Both the position numbers and the translations under genes were made by a program. Positions 21,745 through 34,679 of a stretch of 64,000 bases of DNA are shown piece by piece. Numbering within the stretch: the stretch's first letter is position 1; the number at the start of each line of letters is the position of its first letter. This DNA is from Candidatus Aminicenantota bacterium (GTDB lineage: Bacteria; Acidobacteriota; Aminicenantia; Aminicenantales; UBA8522). Location of the stretch: NCBI GenBank assembly GCA_017886205.1, contig JAFNEO010000024.1, positions 1 to 64,000 of the forward strand. The letters are read 5' to 3'. The notes under the pieces were generated by a model, which did not search any database, was not told where the DNA came from, and worked only from the letters and a program-made list of their open reading frames with translations.

Positions 21745-23106
21745 TTAGACTAAACCCTGCTCCATCATCGCCCGGGCTACCTTGAGGAAACCGCCGATGT
21801 TGGCGCCATTGATATAGTTGCCCGGGGTCCCGTAGGCGACCGCCGACTCCACACAGGTCTTGTGGATGCTTTTCATGATCTGGTGCAGCCGCTTGTCGAC
21901 TTCGTCCCTGGTCCAACTCAGCCGCATACTGTTCTGGCACATCTCTAAACCGGAAGTGGCCACGCCGCCGGCGTTGGCCGCTTTGCCCGGGGCGAACAGG
22001 ATCTTGGCGTCGAGAAAGATGTCGACACCCTCGGGAGTCGTCGGCATGTTAGCGCCCTCGGCGACCACGTACACGCCGTTTTTAACCAGGTTCTTCGCAT
22101 CCTTGGCATTGATCTCGTTCTGGGTGGCGCTGGGGAAGGCGCAATCGGCCTTGATGTCCCAGAGCGGGTTGTGATCCAGGCCCGGCGTCAGGGGCGTGTA
22201 GGTCACTCCCTTGAACTTGTCCGCATATTCTTTGATCCGGCCCCGCCTGACGTTCTTCAGGTCCATAACGAAATCGAGCTTCTTCGAATCGATCCCGGCC
22301 GGATCGTAAATCACGCCGTTAGAGTCAGAGAGAGTCACCGTCTTCCCTCCGAGTTGGTTGATTTTCTCGATCGTGTACTGGGCGACATTGCCGCTCCCGG
22401 AAACGAGGCAAGTCCTCCCCTCGAAAGTCTGCTTTCTTGTGGCCAGCATCTCGGCCGCGAAATAGACGGCGCCGTAGCCCGTCGCTTCAGGCCGGATGAG
22501 GGAGCCGCCCCAGTCCAACCCCTTCCCTGTCAGCACTCCGGTCACCTCGTTCCTTAGCTTTCGGTACTGGCCGTACAGGAAGCCGATCTCGCGTCCGCCC
22601 ACGCCGATATCTCCGGCTGGAACGTCGGTGTCCGGACCGATGTGCCGGAAGAGCTCGTTCATGAAGCTCTGGCACAACCGCATCACTTCGTTGTCGCTCT
22701 TTCCCTTGGGGTCGAAATCGCAGCCGCCCTTCCCTCCGCCCATGGGTAGGGTCGTCAGCGCGTTCTTGAAGACCTGCTCAAAGGCCAGGAACTTCAGGAT
22801 CCCCAGGTTGACCGTGCGATGAAAGCGGAGGCCTCCCTTGTAGGGACCGATGGCGCTGTTCATCTGGATGCGGTAGCCGCGGTTAACCTGGATCTCACCG
22901 GCGTCGTCCATCCAGCTCACCCGGAACATGAGCACCCTCTCCGGCTCGGCGATCCGCTCCAGGATCTTGGCCTTACGGTACTCGGGGTGCCGCTCGAGGA
23001 CCAGAGAAATGGAGTTCACCACCTCATAAACGGCCTGGTGGAACTCGGGCTGGGCCGGGTTCTTGGCCTTGGTCTCGTCCATGAAGTCCTTGACATAATT
23101 GCTCAT
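21745..23106 (-). CDS. gdhA: Glutamate dehydrogenase, hexameric (NADP-type)
   Basis: This 453-residue enzyme interconverts 2-oxoglutarate plus ammonia and glutamate in the cytoplasm. The length and the text YKGGLRFH, MGGGKGGCDFDP (with the catalytic lysine) and VPAGDIGVGGREIG match the E. coli GdhA-type subfamily, usually NADP-linked and biosynthetic. A C-terminal Rossmann domain has VSGSGNVAQYT. AAAGGAG precedes the ATG. An inverted repeat, GTTATGAA with TTCATAAC (23119-23126 and 23164-23171), lies in its leader and could be an operator. It is divergent from a second GDH-like gene whose active site is altered. Confidence 0.95.
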   Translation of the reverse strand: MSNYVKDFMDETKAKNPAQPEFHQAVYEVVNSISLVLERHPEYRKAKILERIAEPERVLMFRVSWMDDAGEIQVNRGYRIQMNSAIGPYKGGLRFHRTVNLGILKFLAFEQVFKNALTTLPMGGGKGGCDFDPKGKSDNEVMRLCQSFMNELFRHIGPDTDVPAGDIGVGGREIGFLYGQYRKLRNEVTGVLTGKGLDWGGSLIRPEATGYGAVYFAAEMLATRKQTFEGRTCLVSGSGNVAQYTIEKINQLGGKTVTLSDSNGVIYDPAGIDSKKLDFVMDLKNVRRGRIKEYADKFKGVTYTPLTPGLDHNPLWDIKADCAFPSATQNEINAKDAKNLVKNGVYVVAEGANMPTTPEGVDIFLDAKILFAPGKAANAGGVATSGLEMCQNSMRLSWTRDEVDKRLHQIMKSIHKTCVESAVAYGTPGNYINGANIGGFLKVARAMMEQGLV

Positions 23107-23252: not shown

Positions 23253-23281
23253 TTGACTTTTGCCAGGGCTCAGTTTATTTT
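23253..23281 (+). promoter_or_regulatory. Promoter of the GDH-paralog / ATP-grasp operon
   Basis: TTGACT (23253-23258) and TATTTT (23276-23281) are spaced by 17 bp, 27 bp ahead of the ATG at 23308. It serves an operon of three overlapping genes and is divergent from gdhA. Confidence 0.6.
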
Positions 23282-23307
23282 TAAAAGAAAAAGAGAGGAA
23301 AGACGGC

Positions 23308-24594
23308 ATGGGCAAAGAGGCGTTCAATTCGTTTGTTACCGCTCAATTCCAGTTCGACCGGACGGCGGAATGGCTGGGGCTGGACCTGCCGACCCGCGAG
23401 CTCCTCCGCTCTCCTTTGAAAGAGCATCAATTCCTCATCCCCCTCCGGATGGACGACGGCAGCGTCAGGGTCTTCCGCGGCTTCCGCGTGCTTCACAACG
23501 ACGCCCGCGGACCGGGCAAGGGAGGCATCCGGTTTCATCCCCATGAGACCATCGATACCATCCGCGCCCTGGCCATGTGGATGACGTGGAAGTGCGCTCT
23601 GTTGGATATCCCGCTCGGTGGAAGCAGCGGCGGCGTCGCCTGCGACCCTCACTACTTAACTCTACGAGAGCAGGAGCAGCTCTGCCGGAGCTGGGTCAAG
23701 CGGCTCGTTCACGAACTCGGTCCCCAGGTCGATGTCCCAGCCCCTGACATCATGACCGGCGCCCAGCACATGCTCTGGATGCTCGACGAATACGAATCCC
23801 TGCGCGGGGAGAAGGTCCCCGGGTTTATCACCGGGAAGCCGGTCGGGATGGGCGGCTCCGTCGGCCGCCTCGAGGCTGCCGGCTTTGGCCTGGTCTTCGC
23901 CCTGCGCGAAGCGCTCAAGGAGCTGGACATGTCGGCAGACGGAGCGACGGCGAGCGTCCAGGGATTCGGCAACGTCGCCCAGCACGCCGTCCGCCTTTTC
24001 GAGCAGATCGGCGGCCGGGTGGTCTGTGTATCCTGCTGGGACCAGAAAGACGCCGTCTCCTATGCCTATAAAAAAGAGCCCAGTATCGAAGTCCAGGCTC
24101 TGGCCGGGATCACGGACCGCTTCGGCGGGATCGACAAGGAGAAGGCCGCAAAAATGGGGTACGACGTTCTCCCCGGAGAAGCCTGGCTATCCCAGGACGT
24201 GGACATCCTCATCCCCGCGGCCGTCGAGAACCAGATCACAGAGGAGAATGTGCAGGTTATCCATCGGCGCGTCCGGGTCATCGCCGAAGGGGCTAATGGT
24301 CCGACCACCGTCGGCGCCGATCGGACGATCGGCGAGCGGGGCATCCTCGTCATCCCGGATATCCTGGCCAACGCCGGGGGAGTCACCTGCAGCTACTTCG
24401 AACAGGTCCAGAGCAACATGAACTACTACTGGGAGAAGGACGAGGTCCTCGGGAAGCTCGACGTCAAGATGACCTCTGCCTTCAACGATGTCCTCGAGTT
24501 CGCCAAGAAAAAGAACCTGCCGATGAGAAACGCGGCCTTTTCCATCGCCGTGGCACGAGTGGCCCAGGCCTGCAAGGACCGCGGGTGGGTTTGA
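23308..24594 (+). CDS. Glutamate dehydrogenase paralog lacking the catalytic lysine
   Basis: This 428-residue protein has the full Glu/Leu/Phe/Val dehydrogenase layout of the GudB/RocG type: KGGIRFHP, VPAPDIMT, QGFGNVAQ, AAVENQITEEN, EGANGPTT and ANAGGVT. However, the GGxKGG motif reads GGSSGG, so the catalytic lysine is replaced by serine. The GRxxATG motif reads GRLEAAG. Such changes should abolish normal dehydrogenase activity and suggest a regulatory or sensor subunit, as in GDH pairs where one subunit is regulatory. ATG 23308 follows GAGAGG; the track start 23260 adds residues overlapping the promoter. It overlaps the next gene by 10 nt, so its output is tied to the ATP-grasp proteins. 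Confidence 0.9.
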   Translation: MGKEAFNSFVTAQFQFDRTAEWLGLDLPTRELLRSPLKEHQFLIPLRMDDGSVRVFRGFRVLHNDARGPGKGGIRFHPHETIDTIRALAMWMTWKCALLDIPLGGSSGGVACDPHYLTLREQEQLCRSWVKRLVHELGPQVDVPAPDIMTGAQHMLWMLDEYESLRGEKVPGFITGKPVGMGGSVGRLEAAGFGLVFALREALKELDMSADGATASVQGFGNVAQHAVRLFEQIGGRVVCVSCWDQKDAVSYAYKKEPSIEVQALAGITDRFGGIDKEKAAKMGYDVLPGEAWLSQDVDILIPAAVENQITEENVQVIHRRVRVIAEGANGPTTVGADRTIGERGILVIPDILANAGGVTCSYFEQVQSNMNYYWEKDEVLGKLDVKMTSAFNDVLEFAKKKNLPMRNAAFSIAVARVAQACKDRGWV

Positions 24595-26336
24595 TTTTGC
24601 CTGACCGGCCGCCCATTGCGTCCTTCGACCGCCGCTTTTTCACCGGGAAGGAGAAGTTCACGGCCATCGGCTGGGGCGACCTGGGGGGAAAAGCCCACGG
24701 GTTGGCCCTGATAAGGGATATCCTGGAGAGTCGGCTGGCCGAGCAGTTTCGCCCCGAGATAGAAATCAACATCCCCACGCTGACTGTGATCACGACCGAT
24801 TTTTTCGACCTATTCATGGAACAGAACGGTCTCTACGACCTGGCCCTCTCCAACCTCCGGGACGATCTCATCGCCGGGGCCTTCCAGAAGGCCGACCTCC
24901 CCGCCCAACTCGTCGGCGACCTTCGCGCCCTGATCGCCCAGGTGCAGACCCCTCTGGCTATCCGGTCCTCGAGTCTGCTCGAGGACGCCATGTTCGAACC
25001 GTTCGCCAGCGTCTATGCCACCAAGATGATCCCCAACAACCAGATGAGTCCTGACTCCCGGTTCAACAAATTGGTCGAGGCCGTGAAATTCATCTATGCT
25101 TCGACCTTCTTCAAGGACGCGAAAAACTATATCCGGGCAACGAAGAAGACAACGGCGGATGAGAAAATGGCGGTGATCATCCAGGAGGTCGTCGGGGTGC
25201 GCCGCGGTCAGCGTTTTTATCCTCATATTTCCGGAGTGGCCCGGTCGTATAACTTCTATCCCCTCGGCCATTCCAAGCCTTCCGACGGAATCATCGACCT
25301 CGCGCTGGGCCTGGGAAAGGCCATCGTTGATGACGGAATCGCTTGGTCCTATTCGCCGGCCTATCCGCGGGCGAACCCGCCCTACAACACGCTGGCCGAC
25401 CTCCTCAGCCAGACCCAATCGGAGTTCTGGGCGATCAACATGGGATGGCCGGCGGAGTTCAACCCCATCAAAGAGACAGAGTACATGATGAAGTTCATTC
25501 TGGGAGACGCGGAGAGGGACGGGGTTCTTCAATTTCTCGCCTCCACTTACCGGGCCCAGGATGACAAGATTGTCTACGGGATCGCCGAAAAAGGCCCCCG
25601 GGTCATCGACTTCGCACCGATCCTCAAGTTCGACCTTCTGCCTCTCAACGCCATGCTGAAGGAGTTGCTGAAGCTCTGCGAGGACACGTTGGGGAGGATG
25701 GTGGAGGTCGAGTTCGCCCTGACTCTCGACGAGCGCCGGGGGAAGCCCGCCCGGTTCGGTTTCCTCCAGGTCAGGCCGATGGTCGTTTCCTCGGCCCAAG
25801 TCGGGGTGTCCCGGGAGGAACTCACGGGCGAAAACGTCCTTCTGGCATCCGAATCGGCCCTCGGGAATGGCGTCCTGGAAAGCATCCGGGACATCGTCTA
25901 TGTGAAGCCCGAGAGTTTCAATGTTCATTATTCCGAGGCAGTCGCCTCCGAGCTTGAGAAACTGAACCATTGGCTGGTTACGTTCGACAGCCCCTACCTT
26001 TTGATCGGCTTCGGCCGCTGGGGGACCTCCGACCCCCAGGCCGGCATTCCTGTGAATTTTGGGCAGATCTGCGGCGCCAAGGTCATCGTCGAGTCCGCCC
26101 TCCCGGAGACGAGCTCCATGCTCAGCCAGGGCTCCCATTTCTTCCACAACATCACCAGTTTCCGGGTCTTTTACTTCTCGTTAAGAGCAGAGGATCAATA
26201 TAAAATCGACTGGGACTGGCTCAACAGTCAACCGGCCGTCCAGGAGACGGACTATGCCCGTCACGTTCGGCTCTCCTCACCCTTGAAGATCAAGGTCGAC
26301 GGGACCACCAGCCGGGGAGTGATTCGCCATGACTGA
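24585..26336 (+). CDS. PEP/pyruvate-binding ATP-grasp protein A (PPDK N-terminal-like)
   Basis: This 583-residue cytoplasmic protein resembles the N-terminal nucleotide-binding domain of PEP synthase and pyruvate phosphate dikinase. LGGKAHGL (33-40) and IRSSSLLED (126-134) are the family's ATP-grasp motifs. The swivelling phosphohistidine domain and the PEP-binding barrel of true PEP synthases are absent. A C-terminal block GFGRWGTSDP (near 475), followed by SQGSHFF, recurs in the two other paralogs here. GTG 24585 follows AAGGA and overlaps the GDH paralog by 10 nt; the next gene overlaps by 8 nt. The reaction is unknown: ATP-dependent phosphotransfer or nucleotide sensing are both possible. 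Confidence 0.82.
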   Translation: MGLILPDRPPIASFDRRFFTGKEKFTAIGWGDLGGKAHGLALIRDILESRLAEQFRPEIEINIPTLTVITTDFFDLFMEQNGLYDLALSNLRDDLIAGAFQKADLPAQLVGDLRALIAQVQTPLAIRSSSLLEDAMFEPFASVYATKMIPNNQMSPDSRFNKLVEAVKFIYASTFFKDAKNYIRATKKTTADEKMAVIIQEVVGVRRGQRFYPHISGVARSYNFYPLGHSKPSDGIIDLALGLGKAIVDDGIAWSYSPAYPRANPPYNTLADLLSQTQSEFWAINMGWPAEFNPIKETEYMMKFILGDAERDGVLQFLASTYRAQDDKIVYGIAEKGPRVIDFAPILKFDLLPLNAMLKELLKLCEDTLGRMVEVEFALTLDERRGKPARFGFLQVRPMVVSSAQVGVSREELTGENVLLASESALGNGVLESIRDIVYVKPESFNVHYSEAVASELEKLNHWLVTFDSPYLLIGFGRWGTSDPQAGIPVNFGQICGAKVIVESALPETSSMLSQGSHFFHNITSFRVFYFSLRAEDQYKIDWDWLNSQPAVQETDYARHVRLSSPLKIKVDGTTSRGVIRHD

Positions 26337-29300
26337 GCGACCGAAGAACGTCGACACGCTCATTTGGTTCCTGTCCGAACGGGCCAAGGAGCTGAGTTGC
26401 CTCTACAAGATCGAGGAGCTCCTGAACAAACCGGACCCGAACCTGGCCGATATCTGCAGAGGGGTCATCGAGGCCATTCCGCCCGGCTGGCAGTACCCGG
26501 ATATCTGTATCGCCAAGATCACCCTGGAAGGGCATTCCTGCCAGTCGGCCAATTTCCAGGAAACACCGTGGGTCCAGTTCGCCGACATCAAGGTCCAGGA
26601 CAAAAAGGTCGGGAGGTTAAGCGTCTACTACACGGCGGAGATGCCTCATGCCGACGATGGGCCTTTCCTGAAAGAGGAGACAAAACTCCTGGGGACGATC
26701 GTCGAGAGGCTCGGACACTACCTCCTCTATTCCCGGATGAAGCAGGCTTACCAGGATTACCAGTCGGCCCGGCTGGACGTCGCGGCCCACAAGGCGGAAG
26801 AATGGCGGATGGCCTTGAATTTCCTGCGCCAGACCAACAAGAACCTATTCCTCGGTATCTCCCGCCGCATGCTCAACTTCCTCAGCTGGAGCGGCATCCA
26901 GGAAGCCGAGAAGATCCTCCAGAAATCGCTGGCCGGCCAGAAGGGCCGGACGGCGGGCTATCCGGAAGACGACAACCGTCCTTATCAAGTGGCCTTATCC
27001 ACTTTTACCGAGAAGCTGAGCGATGAGACCTTCCGGCTGGCGGCCAAGCACCTGACCGGCGAACAAATCCTCGTCAACATCCAGAAGTGGATTCAGGAGG
27101 ACCGGCTGAGCTTTCTCGTCCAGGTGACCAACAGGAACCTCTCCCTGACTCAAGTCGTCGACGCTATCCGGAGATACCATCACATCGCCGCCGAGGGGAT
27201 CGAGCTTCCCGCGGCCAGCAAGCGCGGCGTCCTGGTTTCTTTGATCCAGCGTTTTCTATCCGACCAGCCCGAGTTTATTCATACCGCCGTCGACCACGTC
27301 GAGATCGACGACTTCTACGAGATCCTGGACCACATCGTCTTCTCGCCGGAAAGCCTGGGCAAGCTCGGCGGGAAGAGCACGGGGCTCTATCTCGCCAAGC
27401 ACATCCTCAAGAGGTCCGCCGAATCGCTGAGTCATTTCGGAGAAATCAAAGTTCCCAAGACGTGGTATATCACCTCGGACGGGCTCCTGAGTTTTCTTTC
27501 CCATAACAACCTCAACGAGGTGGTCGAACAGAAATACAAGGACATTGACCAGGTCCGGCTGGAGTACCCCCACATCATCCAGACGTTCAAGAACTCGCCT
27601 TTCCCGACTGACATCATCCAGGGGCTGTCCATGGTCCTGGATGACTTCAAGGACCAGCCCATCATCGTCCGCAGCTCGAGCCTGCTCGAGGATCGGACGG
27701 GGGCCTCCTTTTCGGGGAAATACAAGAGCCTCTTCCTGGCCAACCAGGGCGGCAAGCAGGAGCGGCTGGAAGCCCTGAAGGAGGCCACCGCCGAGGTCTA
27801 CGCCTCGACCTACGGGCCGGACCCCATCGGCTACCGGGCGGAGCGCGGGCTGCTCGATTTCGCCGAAGAGATGGGCATCATGATCCAGGAAGTCGTGGGC
27901 ACCCGGGTAGGACATTATTTCTTCCCGTCCTTCGCCGGCGTCGTGTTCAGCCGGAATGAATTCCGCTGGTCGCCGAGGATCAAGCGCGAGGACGGCCTCC
28001 TGCGATTGGTGCTGGGGCTGGGGACACGGGCCGTCGACCGGACGAGCGACGACTACCCCGTCCTGATCGCACCCGGGCAGGTCGGCCTCCGGGTCAATGT
28101 CACGGCGGACGAGGTCGTCCGCTATGCGCCCAAGAAGGTCGACGTTATTAACTTGAAAACAAACAGCTTCGAGACCATCGAAATCAAAGAGCTGCTGAAG
28201 AAATGCGGCGAGGGCATTCCGGCCGTCGATAAGATCGTTTCCGTCTACGACGGCCAGTGCCTCCGGAAGCCCCTGGGGAGGGCGGTCGATTTCGAGAAAG
28301 ACGACCTCGTGGTCACGTTTGAAGGCCTGGTCAGCGAGACCTCGTTTATCCCCCAGCTCCGGCAGGTCATGCGGCTCTTGGAAGAAAAGCTCCAGTCTCC
28401 GGTGGACATCGAATTCGCCTCCGACGGCCAGAGCTTTTACCTCCTCCAGTGCCGACCGCAAAGCTTCATGGAGGGCGGCGGACCGGCCCGCATTCCCAAG
28501 GACCTGCCCAAAGAGAGTATCGTCTTCCTGGCCAACCGGTATATCTCCAACGGCAGCCTGCCCGACATCACCCATATTGTCTATGTGGACCCGGAGAGCT
28601 ACGACGGTCTCTCCAGCCAGGCGGACCTGCTGGCCGTGGGACGCGCGGTCGGCCGGCTGAACAAGCTCCTGCCGCGGCGCCGCTTCATCCTGATGGGGCC
28701 GGGCCGCTGGGGAAGCCGGGGAGACATCAGGCTCGGCGTCAAGGTCTCCTACTCGGACATCTCGAACACGGCCGCTCTGGTGGAGATCGCCCGGAAGAAA
28801 GGAAACATTCTCCCCGATCTCTCCTTCGGCACCCACTTCTTCCAGGACCTGGTGGAGGCCGAGATTCGCTACCTTCCTCTCTACCCCGACGAGCACGGAA
28901 CCCTCTTCCAGGAAAGCTTCCTCAGGGACTCGCCGAACATCCTCCCCCGCGTCTTGCCCGAGCATGCGGATATCGCGGATACCGTCAGGGTGATCGACGT
29001 AGCCGAGGCCGCCGGAGGGAAGGTGCTCCGCATCCTGATGAACGCCGACCTCGACGAAGCCGTGGGATTTCTCGTCGACCCCCGCATCGACCCTCCCTTA
29101 GCTCCGCTCTCGAAAGAGATGGAGAAAAAACGGGCCGAGAACCATTGGGCCTGGCGGCTCGAGATGGCCGAACACATCGCCTCAAAGTTGGACCCCGGGC
29201 GCTTCGGCGTCCAGGCCATGTACGTGATCGGCAGCACCAAGAACGCTACGGCCGGCCCGCAGAGCGACATCGACCTCCTCGTCCATTTCCGGGGCACCAA

Positions 29301-29535
29301 GAAGCAACGACAGGACCTGATGATCTGGATGGAGGGCTGGAGTCTGTCTCTAGACGAGATGAATTTCCATAAGACGGGCTTGAGGAGCGGCGGAATCCTG
29401 GATGTCCATCTGGTCACGGATGAGGACATCGCCAACAGGACAAGCTATGCGGTGAAGATCGACGCCGTTACCGATGCGGCCAGGCCTTTGCTGCTCAAAG
29501 ACGGCGCCTGCCAACCGGACAGAGAGCGCTCCTAG
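26329..29535 (+). CDS. GAF-like / PEP-pyruvate-binding / nucleotidyltransferase fusion protein B
   Basis: This 1068-residue multidomain protein ends the operon. Residues 1-140 read like the GAF-type sensor module found ahead of histidine kinases (LYKIEELLNKP, IPPGWQYPDIC). A helical linker follows to about 340. The ATP-grasp domain has LGGKSTGL near 345 and VRSSSLLEDRTG near 446. The shared block GPGRWGS (near 790) and FGTHFF (near 833) comes next. The C-terminus (about 940-1068) is a nucleotidyltransferase with GST...SDIDLL near 966, the GSx-DxD signature of MNT-like enzymes. No kinase or phosphohistidine domain is present. The fusion suggests sensing coupled to nucleotidyl transfer onto a partner, possibly GDH; that target is inference. 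Confidence 0.82.
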   Translation: MTERPKNVDTLIWFLSERAKELSCLYKIEELLNKPDPNLADICRGVIEAIPPGWQYPDICIAKITLEGHSCQSANFQETPWVQFADIKVQDKKVGRLSVYYTAEMPHADDGPFLKEETKLLGTIVERLGHYLLYSRMKQAYQDYQSARLDVAAHKAEEWRMALNFLRQTNKNLFLGISRRMLNFLSWSGIQEAEKILQKSLAGQKGRTAGYPEDDNRPYQVALSTFTEKLSDETFRLAAKHLTGEQILVNIQKWIQEDRLSFLVQVTNRNLSLTQVVDAIRRYHHIAAEGIELPAASKRGVLVSLIQRFLSDQPEFIHTAVDHVEIDDFYEILDHIVFSPESLGKLGGKSTGLYLAKHILKRSAESLSHFGEIKVPKTWYITSDGLLSFLSHNNLNEVVEQKYKDIDQVRLEYPHIIQTFKNSPFPTDIIQGLSMVLDDFKDQPIIVRSSSLLEDRTGASFSGKYKSLFLANQGGKQERLEALKEATAEVYASTYGPDPIGYRAERGLLDFAEEMGIMIQEVVGTRVGHYFFPSFAGVVFSRNEFRWSPRIKREDGLLRLVLGLGTRAVDRTSDDYPVLIAPGQVGLRVNVTADEVVRYAPKKVDVINLKTNSFETIEIKELLKKCGEGIPAVDKIVSVYDGQCLRKPLGRAVDFEKDDLVVTFEGLVSETSFIPQLRQVMRLLEEKLQSPVDIEFASDGQSFYLLQCRPQSFMEGGGPARIPKDLPKESIVFLANRYISNGSLPDITHIVYVDPESYDGLSSQADLLAVGRAVGRLNKLLPRRRFILMGPGRWGSRGDIRLGVKVSYSDISNTAALVEIARKKGNILPDLSFGTHFFQDLVEAEIRYLPLYPDEHGTLFQESFLRDSPNILPRVLPEHADIADTVRVIDVAEAAGGKVLRILMNADLDEAVGFLVDPRIDPPLAPLSKEMEKKRAENHWAWRLEMAEHIASKLDPGRFGVQAMYVIGSTKNATAGPQSDIDLLVHFRGTKKQRQDLMIWMEGWSLSLDEMNFHKTGLRSGGILDVHLVTDEDIANRTSYAVKIDAVTDAARPLLLKDGACQPDRERS

Positions 29536-30389
29536 ATCAACTCCCGGGTGGCGGCGTCCAAGCTATCGGGATCGAAGCGGACGAGCGAGAGTTCGGGTCC
29601 GTCGTGAGCGGCTGAGAAGCAGTGGGTACGGCCGATCCGGTCGCGCCAGGAGCCGGAAATCCTGGCCGATTCATGCACATGGCCGTGAAGAGTCAGGAGC
29701 GGCTGGCGGGCTTTGATGAACCGGCGGACGGCGATGCTCCCGAGATGGCAATCGAGAGGGACATGATCGATCATCTTCCCTCCCCGAGCCGACAAGTCAA
29801 GCTTGGTTTGGTAGGGGGGTGTGTGGAAGAGGAAAATCGCTCTGGCCAAGTCTTGGTTCTCGGTGAACCGGTCCAGATCATCTTTGATCGTCAGATATTT
29901 GATTTTTTGCTCAGAGACGGGATAGGTCCGCCATCCCTCCTCGGGTGAGACGGCGTCCGGGTCGGCATAACGGGACACGTCGTACCGTTCCCAGTCTTTC
30001 AGGAGAAACGGCGTTGGGGGAACATAAGCATAGCCGTAGATGGTGAATTCTCCAAACCCGACTCGGCGCTGATGGATATACTCCCAGACACCGCGGGCCG
30101 CCGCATCCAGAACCGCTGCTTCTTCAATCCGGGCATCGTCATTGCCCATGATCAGGAAGACCCGCGGATAGTCTTCCCCAAGCTCCCGGCGCAATTCCAT
30201 AAGATTCTTAACCAGGAAATCATTAATGAAATCCCGATGCGGAAAATCCAGAGTCTCATGGGCATGCCACGCATGGGGGAGAACGTCGCCGCCGATGAAC
30301 ACGGCCTCGGGCTTTTCCCGGAGGACCGCCTCAAAAAGCGTCTGATAACGGCCTATCCTGCCGTGGAGGTCGGAGACAAAGAAGGTCAT
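29532..30389 (-). CDS. Calcineurin-like metallophosphoesterase
   Basis: This 285-residue protein carries the metallophosphoesterase motifs in order: SDLHGR near residue 7, GGDVLPH near 34, GNDDA (in place of GNHE), LFHTPPY, and LHGHVHES near the C-terminus. It should hydrolyse a phosphoester with two bound metals in the cytoplasm. I place the start at MTFFVSDLHG, 30389, because the family begins there; the track start adds 16 residues. Its stop codon shares the palindrome CTAG with the stop of the convergent fusion protein gene. It may lie downstream of the response regulator gene in one transcript. The substrate is unknown; a nucleotide or modified-protein substrate would fit the neighbourhood. 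Confidence 0.85.
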   Translation of the reverse strand: MTFFVSDLHGRIGRYQTLFEAVLREKPEAVFIGGDVLPHAWHAHETLDFPHRDFINDFLVKNLMELRRELGEDYPRVFLIMGNDDARIEEAAVLDAAARGVWEYIHQRRVGFGEFTIYGYAYVPPTPFLLKDWERYDVSRYADPDAVSPEEGWRTYPVSEQKIKYLTIKDDLDRFTENQDLARAIFLFHTPPYQTKLDLSARGGKMIDHVPLDCHLGSIAVRRFIKARQPLLTLHGHVHESARISGSWRDRIGRTHCFSAAHDGPELSLVRFDPDSLDAATRELI

Positions 30390-30471
30390 GGACACAGGGA
30401 GAATGATAGCGAAAATCCGAGGGGGCGACAACTCCACCGAATTCGCCCCTGAGAACGTTCAAAGAAGAGGA

Positions 30472-31194
30472 TTAGGGACCTTCGCCCACGTTGAACTTGT
30501 AGCCGACGCCGCGCACGGTCTGGATGTACCTTTTGGCCTTGCCGAGCTTCTTCCGGAGGCCGGTCAGATGATAATCGACAACACGCTCGGTGATCGGGTA
30601 ACCGTCTTCTCGGACATTGTCGAGGATTCGAGACCGGGTAAAAACCTGGTTGGGTTTGCCCGCAAGAAGGGCAAGAATCTCGAATTCCGTCTTGGTCAGG
30701 GCGATCTTCCGGCCGCCCGCCAAGACCTCGTACGCCCCCCGGTTGATCACCAAGCCGTCGATTTCCAGCGTCGTTTTTTGATCGCCTGCCGACTGGACCC
30801 TCCTCCTCAGAAGGGCCTGGATGCGGGCCAACAGGACCTGTGGCTCAAAAGGCTTCGTAACGTAATCGTCGGCATAATCCTTCAGGCCGGCGACGATATC
30901 CTCCATCCGTTTCTTGGCCGTCACCATGATGACCAAGATCTCGGAGGTGTTGGGATCCTTTTTCAGGATGCCGCAGACTTTATGGCCGTCGATTCCCGGG
31001 AGCAGGAGGTCCAGAAGGATGAGGTCCGGCCTCTCCCTCCTCACCAGCTCCAGGGCTTCCTCTCCTGTCTGGGCGCAGAGGACTTCATAGCCTTCTCGCC
31101 AAAGGATGAAAGACAGGCTTTTCTGAAGGTTGACGTCGTCCTCGACACAGAGAATCCTGGCTTTGGGGGGGGTATCTTCGCTCGCTGCTTTCAT
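30472..31194 (-). CDS. Response regulator, OmpR/PhoB family
   Basis: This 240-residue DNA-binding regulator has a receiver domain (about 12-128) with acidic pair ED/D at 18-20, phospho-acceptor D62 in LILLDLLLPG, and the lysine in VTKPFEP near 112. A winged-helix Trans_reg_C domain follows (about 140-235), ending with the typical YIQTVRGVGYKF. It would bind DNA when phosphorylated. No histidine kinase gene is adjacent, so it is an orphan in this window. The nearest signalling genes are the receiver-domain protein and ATP-grasp protein C upstream, and the GAF-like fusion protein downstream. A promoter lies at 31219-31247. Confidence 0.93.
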   Translation of the reverse strand: MKAASEDTPPKARILCVEDDVNLQKSLSFILWREGYEVLCAQTGEEALELVRRERPDLILLDLLLPGIDGHKVCGILKKDPNTSEILVIMVTAKKRMEDIVAGLKDYADDYVTKPFEPQVLLARIQALLRRRVQSAGDQKTTLEIDGLVINRGAYEVLAGGRKIALTKTEFEILALLAGKPNQVFTRSRILDNVREDGYPITERVVDYHLTGLRKKLGKAKRYIQTVRGVGYKFNVGEGP

Positions 31195-31576: not shown

Positions 31577-33019
31577 TCAGATGCGGGAGTCTCGCTCTGT
31601 GTAAACTTTGATCCATTTATCGACAATTTCGACTAGGGTTTGACACAGTCCGGTACCGCTGCCGTGGATGGGGCGGAGCTCCTCGGCCAGCTCGGGATAG
31701 CCCCGGCGGTCAAGCCAGGAAGAGATGATGTCGTTATCGGAGTAAGGCTGAATTTTCTCCGGCGCCAGGGAGCGAAGGGCCGCCAGGAGATCGGGCAGGT
31801 TAAAGACCTTCTTTCCTCCCATGGCCAGTGGGGTCCGGTCCAGGCGCGCTATCTCGACTTGCAGGTTCCTCTTGAGAAGGGTAATGAGCGCGCGGCCTCG
31901 GCTCCTCCTGGGGCGCAGCCTGTCCCCCAGCTCCCGGTAGCTGTGCATGTAGAGCCAGGTCGAAAACTTGTCCTTGTCACCGTAGTTTTCCAGCATTTGG
32001 CGCAGTCGGCGGGCCTCCTCGGTGTCCTTTTCTGCGTCAAGAAGGATCCCGCAGATCTCCCTGATATTCCTGGCCCGCCGGAGCTCCCGGCCGTCATCAT
32101 CGGAAAGGAAGAAGTCTCCCATCCCAGTGAAGTTGAGGATGTACGCTTTGAGCTTCTCGAGGCTCCCAGGATCCCCCTTGGGAAGGACGAAGCCCAGGCC
32201 TTGAAGTTCATGGGCTTCTTTTGCTTTGGAGGCGATAATCACGGGAATGCGGGGAAAGTGCTTGTTCACCAACCGGATGAGGTCACGGCCGGCGCCGCTC
32301 TGAAGTTCGTTTCCTTTGGGGAAGAAGATGTCCGTAATCAGGCAAACGACATCGTCCCCGTGACCCCGGGGGAGCCGGCTCTCGGCACTGATCTTGGACT
32401 CCTCTTCGACCCCGAAAAGAAAACAGAGGCTTTCCTCGTAGGTCCTGGTGATCATGACGTCAGCGCGCTGGCCGATGATCGCATACAGCACCGGAAGGAA
32501 TTGGGAAAACCAGCGCGGCTCGTCGTCTACAATATGGAAAATGAACCGTCTGAGGCTGGAGTGTTTTTTGATGTTGAGCAGGTCCTCCGCCGCCCGGACG
32601 GCCGGCAGGACGATGCTTTCGGGGGGAAAGGCGTCCCGGTTGACGGCGAAGACGAGGTCGGCGCCGGCCGCATAGGGATACTTCTGCCAAGCCGCTTGAG
32701 GGGGTGCGTATTGGATGTACGGCTGGAACGATAAAAGGACAAAAACCGAGTCCTGACTCCGGGCGTGCAGCTTTTTGGCATCGAGGATGGCGAGGCCGGT
32801 ATCATCGAAGAGGAAGACCGACGGTTCTCCGGAGGCGGCGGCCAGCACCGACTGGGGATCAGGGAGGACCTCCGTACTTAACCACGGCATCTTCTCGTCC
32901 AGGACCTTCCTGGACTCACGGACCCGTCCGTCGGCCGCAAAAAAGTACGCCCGCTTGATCTTGACGGGGTTGATGATCCGGGGGATAAACTCATATTCCC
33001 GGGAAGCACGCCTAGCCAT
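31577..33019 (-). CDS. Receiver-domain protein of unknown output
   Basis: This 480-residue cytoplasmic protein has an embedded response-regulator receiver domain at about 165-300. IVDDEP supplies the acidic pair, LITDIFFPKG the likely phospho-acceptor, IIASKA the switch residue, and LPKGDP the lysine. The N-terminal 160 residues and the helical C-terminal 180 (rich in Arg, Glu and Leu: REICGILLDAEKDTEEARRLRQ) match nothing I know. No DNA-binding, GGDEF or kinase output is seen. It overlaps the upstream ATP-grasp gene by 8 nt, so the two are cotranscribed and probably work together. The last part (DKFSTWLYMHSYRELGDRLRP) and SSWLDRRGYPELAEELRP look like two copies of one short helical repeat. 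Confidence 0.75.
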   Translation of the reverse strand: MARRASREYEFIPRIINPVKIKRAYFFAADGRVRESRKVLDEKMPWLSTEVLPDPQSVLAAASGEPSVFLFDDTGLAILDAKKLHARSQDSVFVLLSFQPYIQYAPPQAAWQKYPYAAGADLVFAVNRDAFPPESIVLPAVRAAEDLLNIKKHSSLRRFIFHIVDDEPRWFSQFLPVLYAIIGQRADVMITRTYEESLCFLFGVEEESKISAESRLPRGHGDDVVCLITDIFFPKGNELQSGAGRDLIRLVNKHFPRIPVIIASKAKEAHELQGLGFVLPKGDPGSLEKLKAYILNFTGMGDFFLSDDDGRELRRARNIREICGILLDAEKDTEEARRLRQMLENYGDKDKFSTWLYMHSYRELGDRLRPRRSRGRALITLLKRNLQVEIARLDRTPLAMGGKKVFNLPDLLAALRSLAPEKIQPYSDNDIISSWLDRRGYPELAEELRPIHGSGTGLCQTLVEIVDKWIKVYTERDSRI

Positions 33020-34679
33020 TCTCAGTAACCACCTGGCAGCGTTGGTTTAAGGAATCCGCATACACTGTGACGGGGCGAGGAAAGGCCAACACCGAAAGCG
33101 CCGACTCTGGATGAGTTCCGGAGAAAAGCCACGGGTCGAAGGTATCAAGCTGCGGCGTGACATAACCGTAGATGATATTGTTGCTCATCAGGTTGGTCAA
33201 GAAATGGGTGCCCTGGGTCCCGTACATCCGGGTCTGGAGTCTCTTCTGATCCTCGTCGAACCCACCCTGAATCATATACAGGAAATGGCTGCCGTAGACG
33301 CCCCCGGTGAGGCTTCCTTCTTCGGGCAGAGGTTCGGACCGCCCGGCTACGTCCACTCCGTATTCGAAGATCGCCGCCGCCTGGTCGACGTCCTTAAACT
33401 CGACGAAGATGCCCCAATCCGAGTTCTTGCTCCCTAGGCGTCCGGGAACGACCAAGATGTATTTCTCGCCCCGGCCCTTCATCTCGCGGTTGACCTCGAC
33501 GACCCGCTTTCGGACCGCCGCCTGCATGTCTTTTGTATAGAGGAAAGGAGATACCACGACAGCGAACCTGATGTCCTTCTTGACCCCATGTCCCTGGGCG
33601 TTGGTGATTGAGAGGTATGTATGGCGGATATGTCGGGGAACCGGGAGCGCCTCGAACCTCAGTTCGGGCAACTCGGTTAGCTGGACGATGTGAAAGGTCC
33701 CTTTTCTGTCCTCCTTCCGGGAGAAGTCGAGGTTGAAGACAAACTCGATCTGGAAATGGGAGGATATGCGGGCGGAGATAGTTTCCATGATCTCGGCAAG
33801 GGTTGTCCTGAACCCAAAGTGGTTGTTCTGGATGAGCTCCTCGATCGTAATCAGGTTGTTCTGGATCCCCAGGAGTCGGATCTTATGAAAATTGGCGAAC
33901 CGCACGTGCAGCTTCCTCATCGTCTCCAGTTCTTCCCCCTTGAGGTCTCTGTTCCTGGTCATGTCAAGAGCATAAAAATACTGTTGGCCGGTCCCGATCT
34001 TCAGGAGATCGAGGGGGATCGGGTTGCGGATGGTAGCCATGGAGATGACGGGAAAATCATCCAGGACGGTGGCGTAGCCGTGGCCGAAGGCGATCCGGGC
34101 AAACCCCTCCTTGGGGTTCTGGTTCTTCAGGGCATGGGGAAAAAAGGAGCTCGCCACGCCGGAAATATAGGGATAATAAACCGGGCCAGCGAGCGTGTCG
34201 TCGAAGAGCCCGGGGATGGGGTTGATCACGATGGCCATCTTTTCCCGGCTATCGGGCGGCTGCTTCCGGCGGAAGTCATCATAGATATGGCCGATCGCCA
34301 GGCCAGCCTGAACGACGCGGACCTTCGGGTCGGGATGGTTGTTGGGCAGCATGAAGGAGGCGTTCTCGCCCGCGTGAACGGGGCCGATGCCGGCTGTCGT
34401 GCGGCCCGCCTCATTCGTGGCCGACGAGCGGATACCCAGGGGGATTTCCCCGAGTTCGTCGAGAATCGAAGTGACGTTTAGAAGCTCCTGCTCCCCGAGC
34501 CTGCAGTTGTTCTCCAGGTACCGGTCATAGAAATCCGTGGCCAGGATGCACGTCTTGAGCTTTCCGACCTTCAGGAGGGAAATCTCGTTGATCCTGATGA
34601 GCCCGGCCCCCTTCCCTCCCGGAGCCCCGGACCCATAGACTTTGACGTCGCCTTCTTTCTCGGTTATTGGGATGCTCAT
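33012..34679 (-). CDS. PEP/pyruvate-binding ATP-grasp protein C
   Basis: This 555-residue protein is the third PPDK N-terminal-like paralog. GGKGAGL (21-27) and GIRSSATNEAG (82-92) match the ATP-grasp motifs. The C-terminal block VPGRLGS (near 417) and YGSHFLYMI correspond to GPGRWGS and GTHFF in paralogs A and B, with a longer insert between them. Like them it lacks the phosphohistidine and PEP-binding domains. It leads an operon with the receiver-domain protein, overlapping it by 8 nt. The acidic residue usually following RSSAT is changed (NEAG rather than AED), so catalysis is uncertain. A nucleotide- or metabolite-sensing role with the receiver protein is plausible. Confidence 0.78.
   Translation of the reverse strand: MSIPITEKEGDVKVYGSGAPGGKGAGLIRINEISLLKVGKLKTCILATDFYDRYLENNCRLGEQELLNVTSILDELGEIPLGIRSSATNEAGRTTAGIGPVHAGENASFMLPNNHPDPKVRVVQAGLAIGHIYDDFRRKQPPDSREKMAIVINPIPGLFDDTLAGPVYYPYISGVASSFFPHALKNQNPKEGFARIAFGHGYATVLDDFPVISMATIRNPIPLDLLKIGTGQQYFYALDMTRNRDLKGEELETMRKLHVRFANFHKIRLLGIQNNLITIEELIQNNHFGFRTTLAEIMETISARISSHFQIEFVFNLDFSRKEDRKGTFHIVQLTELPELRFEALPVPRHIRHTYLSITNAQGHGVKKDIRFAVVVSPFLYTKDMQAAVRKRVVEVNREMKGRGEKYILVVPGRLGSKNSDWGIFVEFKDVDQAAAIFEYGVDVAGRSEPLPEEGSLTGGVYGSHFLYMIQGGFDEDQKRLQTRMYGTQGTHFLTNLMSNNIIYGYVTPQLDTFDPWLFSGTHPESALSVLAFPRPVTVYADSLNQRCQVVTENG

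Follow-up and report, generated by a model that had tools for sequence, protein, structure and literature searches.

A two-receiver protein as the probable detached regulatory half of a REC-PPDK fusion in Aminicenantes

P0001 is a minus-strand gene of the window, by which we mean the whole 64,000-nucleotide stretch of DNA analyzed here. Together with the neighboring gene P0002 it appears, from sequence, to be the two-gene form, in reversed order, of a published REC-PPDK_N fusion family, since P0001 aligns with the N-terminal half of the fused proteins and P0002 with the C-terminal half. REC-PPDK response regulators as such have been catalogued; the split form, the doubled DUF5752-like output and the diverged partner are a new variant. 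On balance we favor the view that P0001 is a response regulator with no enzyme of its own, a detached REC-PPDK regulatory half that acts in trans on P0002 in a control process linked to glutamate dehydrogenase (GDH).

Domain architecture of P0001

The P0001 frame runs from an ATG at 33019 to 31577 and encodes 480 amino acids. The preliminary description of this DNA had proposed a 480-residue protein with a full receiver signature, and both the frame and the receiver residues are present. The AlphaFold model (pLDDT 86.8, pTM 0.88) divides the protein into a degenerate receiver (residues 22-152), an intact receiver (160-297) and a module of a hairpin plus helices that occurs twice in tandem (303-479).

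31577..33019, minus strand: P0001, stand-alone protein of 480 aa; degenerate receiver, receiver and two DUF5752-like modules
32564..32956, minus strand: N-terminal receiver-fold domain, residues 22-152; model pLDDT ~90, (beta/alpha)5 order, PleD tandem-receiver matches
32129..32542, minus strand: intact receiver, residues 160-297, with D165/D166, D230, S264 and K281
31841..32113, minus strand: DUF5752-like module 1, residues 303-393, FSTWLYMHSYRELGDRLRP
31583..31828, minus strand: DUF5752-like module 2, residues 398-479, ISSWLDRRGYPELAEELRP

Family searches by sequence said little. As the preliminary description had held for plain HMMs, Pfam gave P0001 no family at E <= 10, nor did it give P0002 one. 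The Pfam and NCBIfam scans of both proteins yielded nothing useful; a SigX match (E 0.0067) was rejected as chance because it fell far under the cut-off. The P0001 profile matched no PDB sequence, and a promoter and terminator scan around the gene was uninformative. The best Foldseek match was PleD, at its tandem receivers (E 3e-5). Foldseek matches to GFAT/GlmS-type sugar isomerases were dismissed as generic Rossmann-like.

In the model, both residues 160-297 and residues 22-152 take the (beta/alpha)5 receiver fold, with matches to PleD and other REC structures. The intact receiver carries IVDDEP at 163-168, LITDIFFP at 227-234 and LPKGDP at 279-284. Its signature residues sit at, or directly after, the ends of beta1, beta3, beta4 and beta5. 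In an alignment of 12 P0001 orthologues and 12 fused homologues, the acidic pair at 165/166 (D/E and D), D230, S264 and K281 are kept in all 24. The acidic site is thus placed at the strand ends and conserved throughout, as expected if it is equivalent to that of other receivers. PF00072 itself is not matched by P0001 (Pfam, E <= 10). The fused homologues do match it; in the member shown, the match is to the first receiver.

What is the N-terminal domain? D72 stands at the acceptor position and S97 at that of the Ser/Thr, and neither varies within the P0001 family, so an "aspartate-less receiver" can be ruled out. The acidic pair (now A28 and A29) and the Lys (now V126) are gone, and the domain is therefore probably not a normal phosphoacceptor. 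It could not be aligned by sequence with the intact receiver, nor with the N terminus of the fused proteins; its identity as a receiver hence rests on the model and on its position, and on these grounds we regard it as a degenerate receiver-like domain, the second such fold in the protein. An input of two receivers in tandem, of which one is degenerate, recalls PleD (REC-REC-GGDEF). However, the output of PleD is a GGDEF domain, whereas that of P0001 is DUF5752-like and paired with a separate ATP-grasp protein.

Each C-terminal module is modeled as a beta-hairpin followed by helices. Compared profile to profile, the two score 57.1 (E 1.5e-10; 48 aligned columns, 31% identity), whereas the highest of 100 column-shuffles reached 20.0, which bears out the earlier suggestion of a short helical motif in two copies. 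The module profile also matches stand-alone DUF5752 proteins of the phylum, with a score of 42.2 (shuffled maximum 24.4, n=60). This alignment passes through module 2; module 1 alone matches DUF5752 weakly, and its own link to that family rests on its likeness to module 2 and on the evidence of the fused homologues. P0001 shares with DUF5752 (PF19027) the two-module layout of ~200 aa and the F-S-x-W-L motifs as well as the profile match. It differs in that its modules fall under the Pfam gathering threshold (best orthologue E 0.017), are joined to receivers and have no glycosyltransferase gene beside them.

The regions on either side of the intact receiver, which the preliminary description had called unrecognised and for which it had proposed structure prediction, can hence be assigned by model and profiles: a degenerate receiver-like domain on one side and DUF5752-like repeats on the other. 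Its statement that no known output domain is present holds in part. The modules are recognizable, but DUF5752 is itself a family of unknown function, for which our literature search found neither a described role nor a paper. Stand-alone DUF5752 genes (L084-L097; e.g., L086:1260-3159) often adjoin a gene that, read from sequence, encodes a trehalose-synthase-like glycosyltransferase, a neighbor that offers a lead to the function of DUF5752. At three loci (L011, L012 and L013) the last P0001 module survives as a short remnant with the rest of the gene absent; the remnant in L013 (genome G044) lies just downstream of GDH.

The putative ATP-grasp partner and the fused family

The proposal that P0001 shares one operon with an ATP-grasp protein is supported.

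33012..34679, minus strand: P0002, PPDK_N-type ATP-grasp protein of 555 aa, upstream of P0001 and overlapping it by 8 nt

The pairing extends to relatives, those named being Candidatus Aminicenantes MAGs. Among 59 relatives, P0002 is present in 9/9 with a full-length P0001 and in 0/50 of the others. Such co-occurrence would have a chance probability of 8e-11 on the assumption, which does not hold here, that the genomes are independent of one another. In 10/10 pairs the two frames overlap or almost touch. Relatives with P0001 fragments alone (G019, G034 and G050, the last with its fragment at a contig end) lack P0002. The exception is a 10.4 Mb MAG, G337, whose P0001 and P0002 genes lie on separate contigs. 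The P0002 orthologue of G337 (L101:2529-7210) faces a fused REC-PPDK gene in convergent orientation and adjoins GDH, with no P0001 beside it.

A profile of the receiver plus module 1 found matches in 89/297 genomes of the phylum, mostly in frames of ~1000 aa; four are P0001-type, and receiver-receiver-DUF5752-PPDK_N fusions of this length occur in some 85 other genomes. In the 11 fused proteins aligned, the domains stand in the order receiver, receiver, DUF5752 module, PPDK_N, and Pfam recognizes PF01326 in 11/11, PF00072 in 11/11 and PF19027 in 10/11. The P0001 profile matches the N-terminal half at E 1.9e-27, the P0001 receiver alone matches the family at E 8.4e-21, and P0002 matches the C-terminal half at E 3.1e-45. 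The published name for proteins built in this way is "Bacteroides-like REC with pyruvate phosphate dikinase"; our literature search found no assigned function for the family. P0001/P0002 retain its order of degenerate receiver, intact receiver and DUF5752-type module, together with a PPDK_N-type partner. They depart from it in that receiver and PPDK_N, a single polypeptide in the ~1000-aa homologues, are encoded in the window by two overlapping genes in reversed order, in having two DUF5752-like modules instead of one, and in the strong divergence of the P0002 PPDK_N, which has a ~40-aa insertion.

Simple gene fission as the full origin of the pair is ruled out by the reversed gene order and by the tree, where P0003, another PPDK_N protein of the window, and not P0002, nests within the fused proteins (support 100/99). 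P0002 is joined to the family weakly, via a long branch. P0003 stands in the tree as if a fused protein, while part of the GDH operon, had shed its receiver half.

P0002 resembles P0003 (BLAST E 1e-18) and rifampin phosphotransferase 5hv1 (Foldseek E 3.5e-10), and is best described from these matches as a remote, diverged relative of the PPDK_N-type ATP-grasp proteins. It appears to share the fold of the N-terminal ATP-grasp domain of PEP synthase, PPDK and rifampin phosphotransferase, and it keeps a Lys, an Arg, a Glu and a Gln of that domain: K23, R84, E312 and Q333 do not vary among the P0002 proteins. The first two are aligned with Lys22 and Arg117 of RPH, an equivalence inferred from motif alignment; replacement of either RPH residue abolished resistance (PMC4844700). 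Unlike those enzymes, P0002 lacks swivel, PEP/pyruvate and drug domains. The phosphohistidine swivel of PEP-utilisers and the PEP/pyruvate domains had no Pfam match in P0002, P0003, P0004 or the 11 fused proteins. As the swivel is absent from them by Pfam, P0002 and the fused proteins are predicted to be unable to act in the manner of a conventional PEP synthase or dikinase. In addition, the residue after the catalytic Gln motif position, an Arg in 10/11 fused proteins, is Thr (T335) in 10/10 P0002 proteins, so that this Arg is missing, and the Asp after RSSxxxE is lost. Because these two positions are lost, P0002 may be catalytically weak or dead.

Perhaps P0002 is a non-catalytic ATP-grasp relic that works jointly with P0001 as a scaffold or gene regulator? 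The Arg and Asp losses, found in P0002 only, and the long branch are what such a relic would show, and there is a precedent in PspR, a haloarchaeal PPS-like repressor for which an enzyme-to-regulator conversion of function has been reported (PMC10948481). However, the invariance of K23, R84, E312 and Q333 argues against this, and we recognized no DNA-binding domain. We consider this alternative rather unlikely.

Linkage to glutamate dehydrogenase and proposed function

The other genes that bear on function lie downstream of P0001 in the window.

21745..23106, minus strand: P0006, NADP-type glutamate dehydrogenase
23260..24594, plus strand: P0005, second glutamate dehydrogenase
24585..26336, plus strand: P0003, PPDK_N protein without the regulatory half, nesting in the fused family
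26329..29535, plus strand: P0004, GAF-like + PPDK_N + nucleotidyltransferase protein
29532..30437, minus strand: P0007, calcineurin-like metallophosphoesterase, a recurrent neighbor
30472..31194, minus strand: P0008, OmpR-type response regulator downstream, beside P0001/P0002 in the closest relatives

The preliminary description overlooked the GDH linkage. A GDH gene lies near at least 40 of the 56 fused loci, and immediately upstream on the same strand in at least 34 (L060-L075, L103-L142), counts that are lower bounds because some fetched stretches end at contig ends. About 1 locus of 56 would be expected at a density of 3 GDH genes per 2 Mb, itself a generous figure; the genome studied here has 3 GDH-family matches. 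Homologues of P0004 and P0007 also recur at fused loci, and the window holds the same gene set. In 5/9 genomes with the P0001/P0002 pair, neither P0003 nor GDH is nearby; the case for a GDH link thus comes from the closest relatives and from the fused homologues. Our search for literature joining GDH with the REC-PPDK family found nothing relevant. The linkage suggests a concrete target process for the functionally unassigned REC-PPDK family. It indicates a shared process only, and direct action on GDH is a guess.

In the mechanism that we propose for P0001, a histidine kinase would phosphorylate D230. A plausible candidate for the phosphodonor occurs in G122, where the pair adjoins genes read from sequence as a GAF-HisKA histidine kinase and an NtrC-like regulator. 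Phosphorylation would alter the docking of the DUF5752-like modules on P0002, in place of the covalent link of the fused proteins. P0002 would bind ATP and switch an ATP-dependent (phospho)transfer or an allosteric output. The target would be glutamate/ammonia metabolism, which we infer because GDH genes flank the REC-PPDK system across the phylum, and most simply GDH itself. A stronger version, which we offer as speculation, is that GDH is itself modified or gated by a PPDK_N-type ATP-grasp enzyme under two-component control. If true, REC-PPDK would be a phylum-wide switch of glutamate/ammonia flux, and in some Aminicenantes P0001 would be its diffusible regulator and P0002 its diverged catalytic subunit, now separate. 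Because the split form has a small regulator apart from its ATP-grasp partner, phosphorylation-dependent binding and activity can be tested directly.

Might the true target of P0001 instead be P0003, a GDH-operon protein of fused-family descent, with P0002 a secondary subunit? P0003 has no receiver of its own, its place in the tree fits such a role, and it shares a neighborhood with P0001 in the closest relatives. Yet it is found in 4/9 P0001 genomes against 9/9 for P0002, and it is P0002, not P0003, that the P0001 gene overlaps. We therefore think this improbable. Least credible of all is that the partner of the DUF5752-like modules is a glycosyltransferase or another protein of sugar metabolism, the ATP-grasp neighbor being incidental: the stand-alone DUF5752 genes would suggest it, but no glycosyltransferase gene lies near P0001, the fused proteins place the DUF5752 module beside PPDK_N, and P0001 co-occurs with P0002.

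P0004 recurs beside GDH/REC-PPDK genes. Its GAF-like N terminus matches the like region of a histidine kinase at another locus, L082 (47% over 117 aa), and its nucleotidyltransferase domain is C-terminal.
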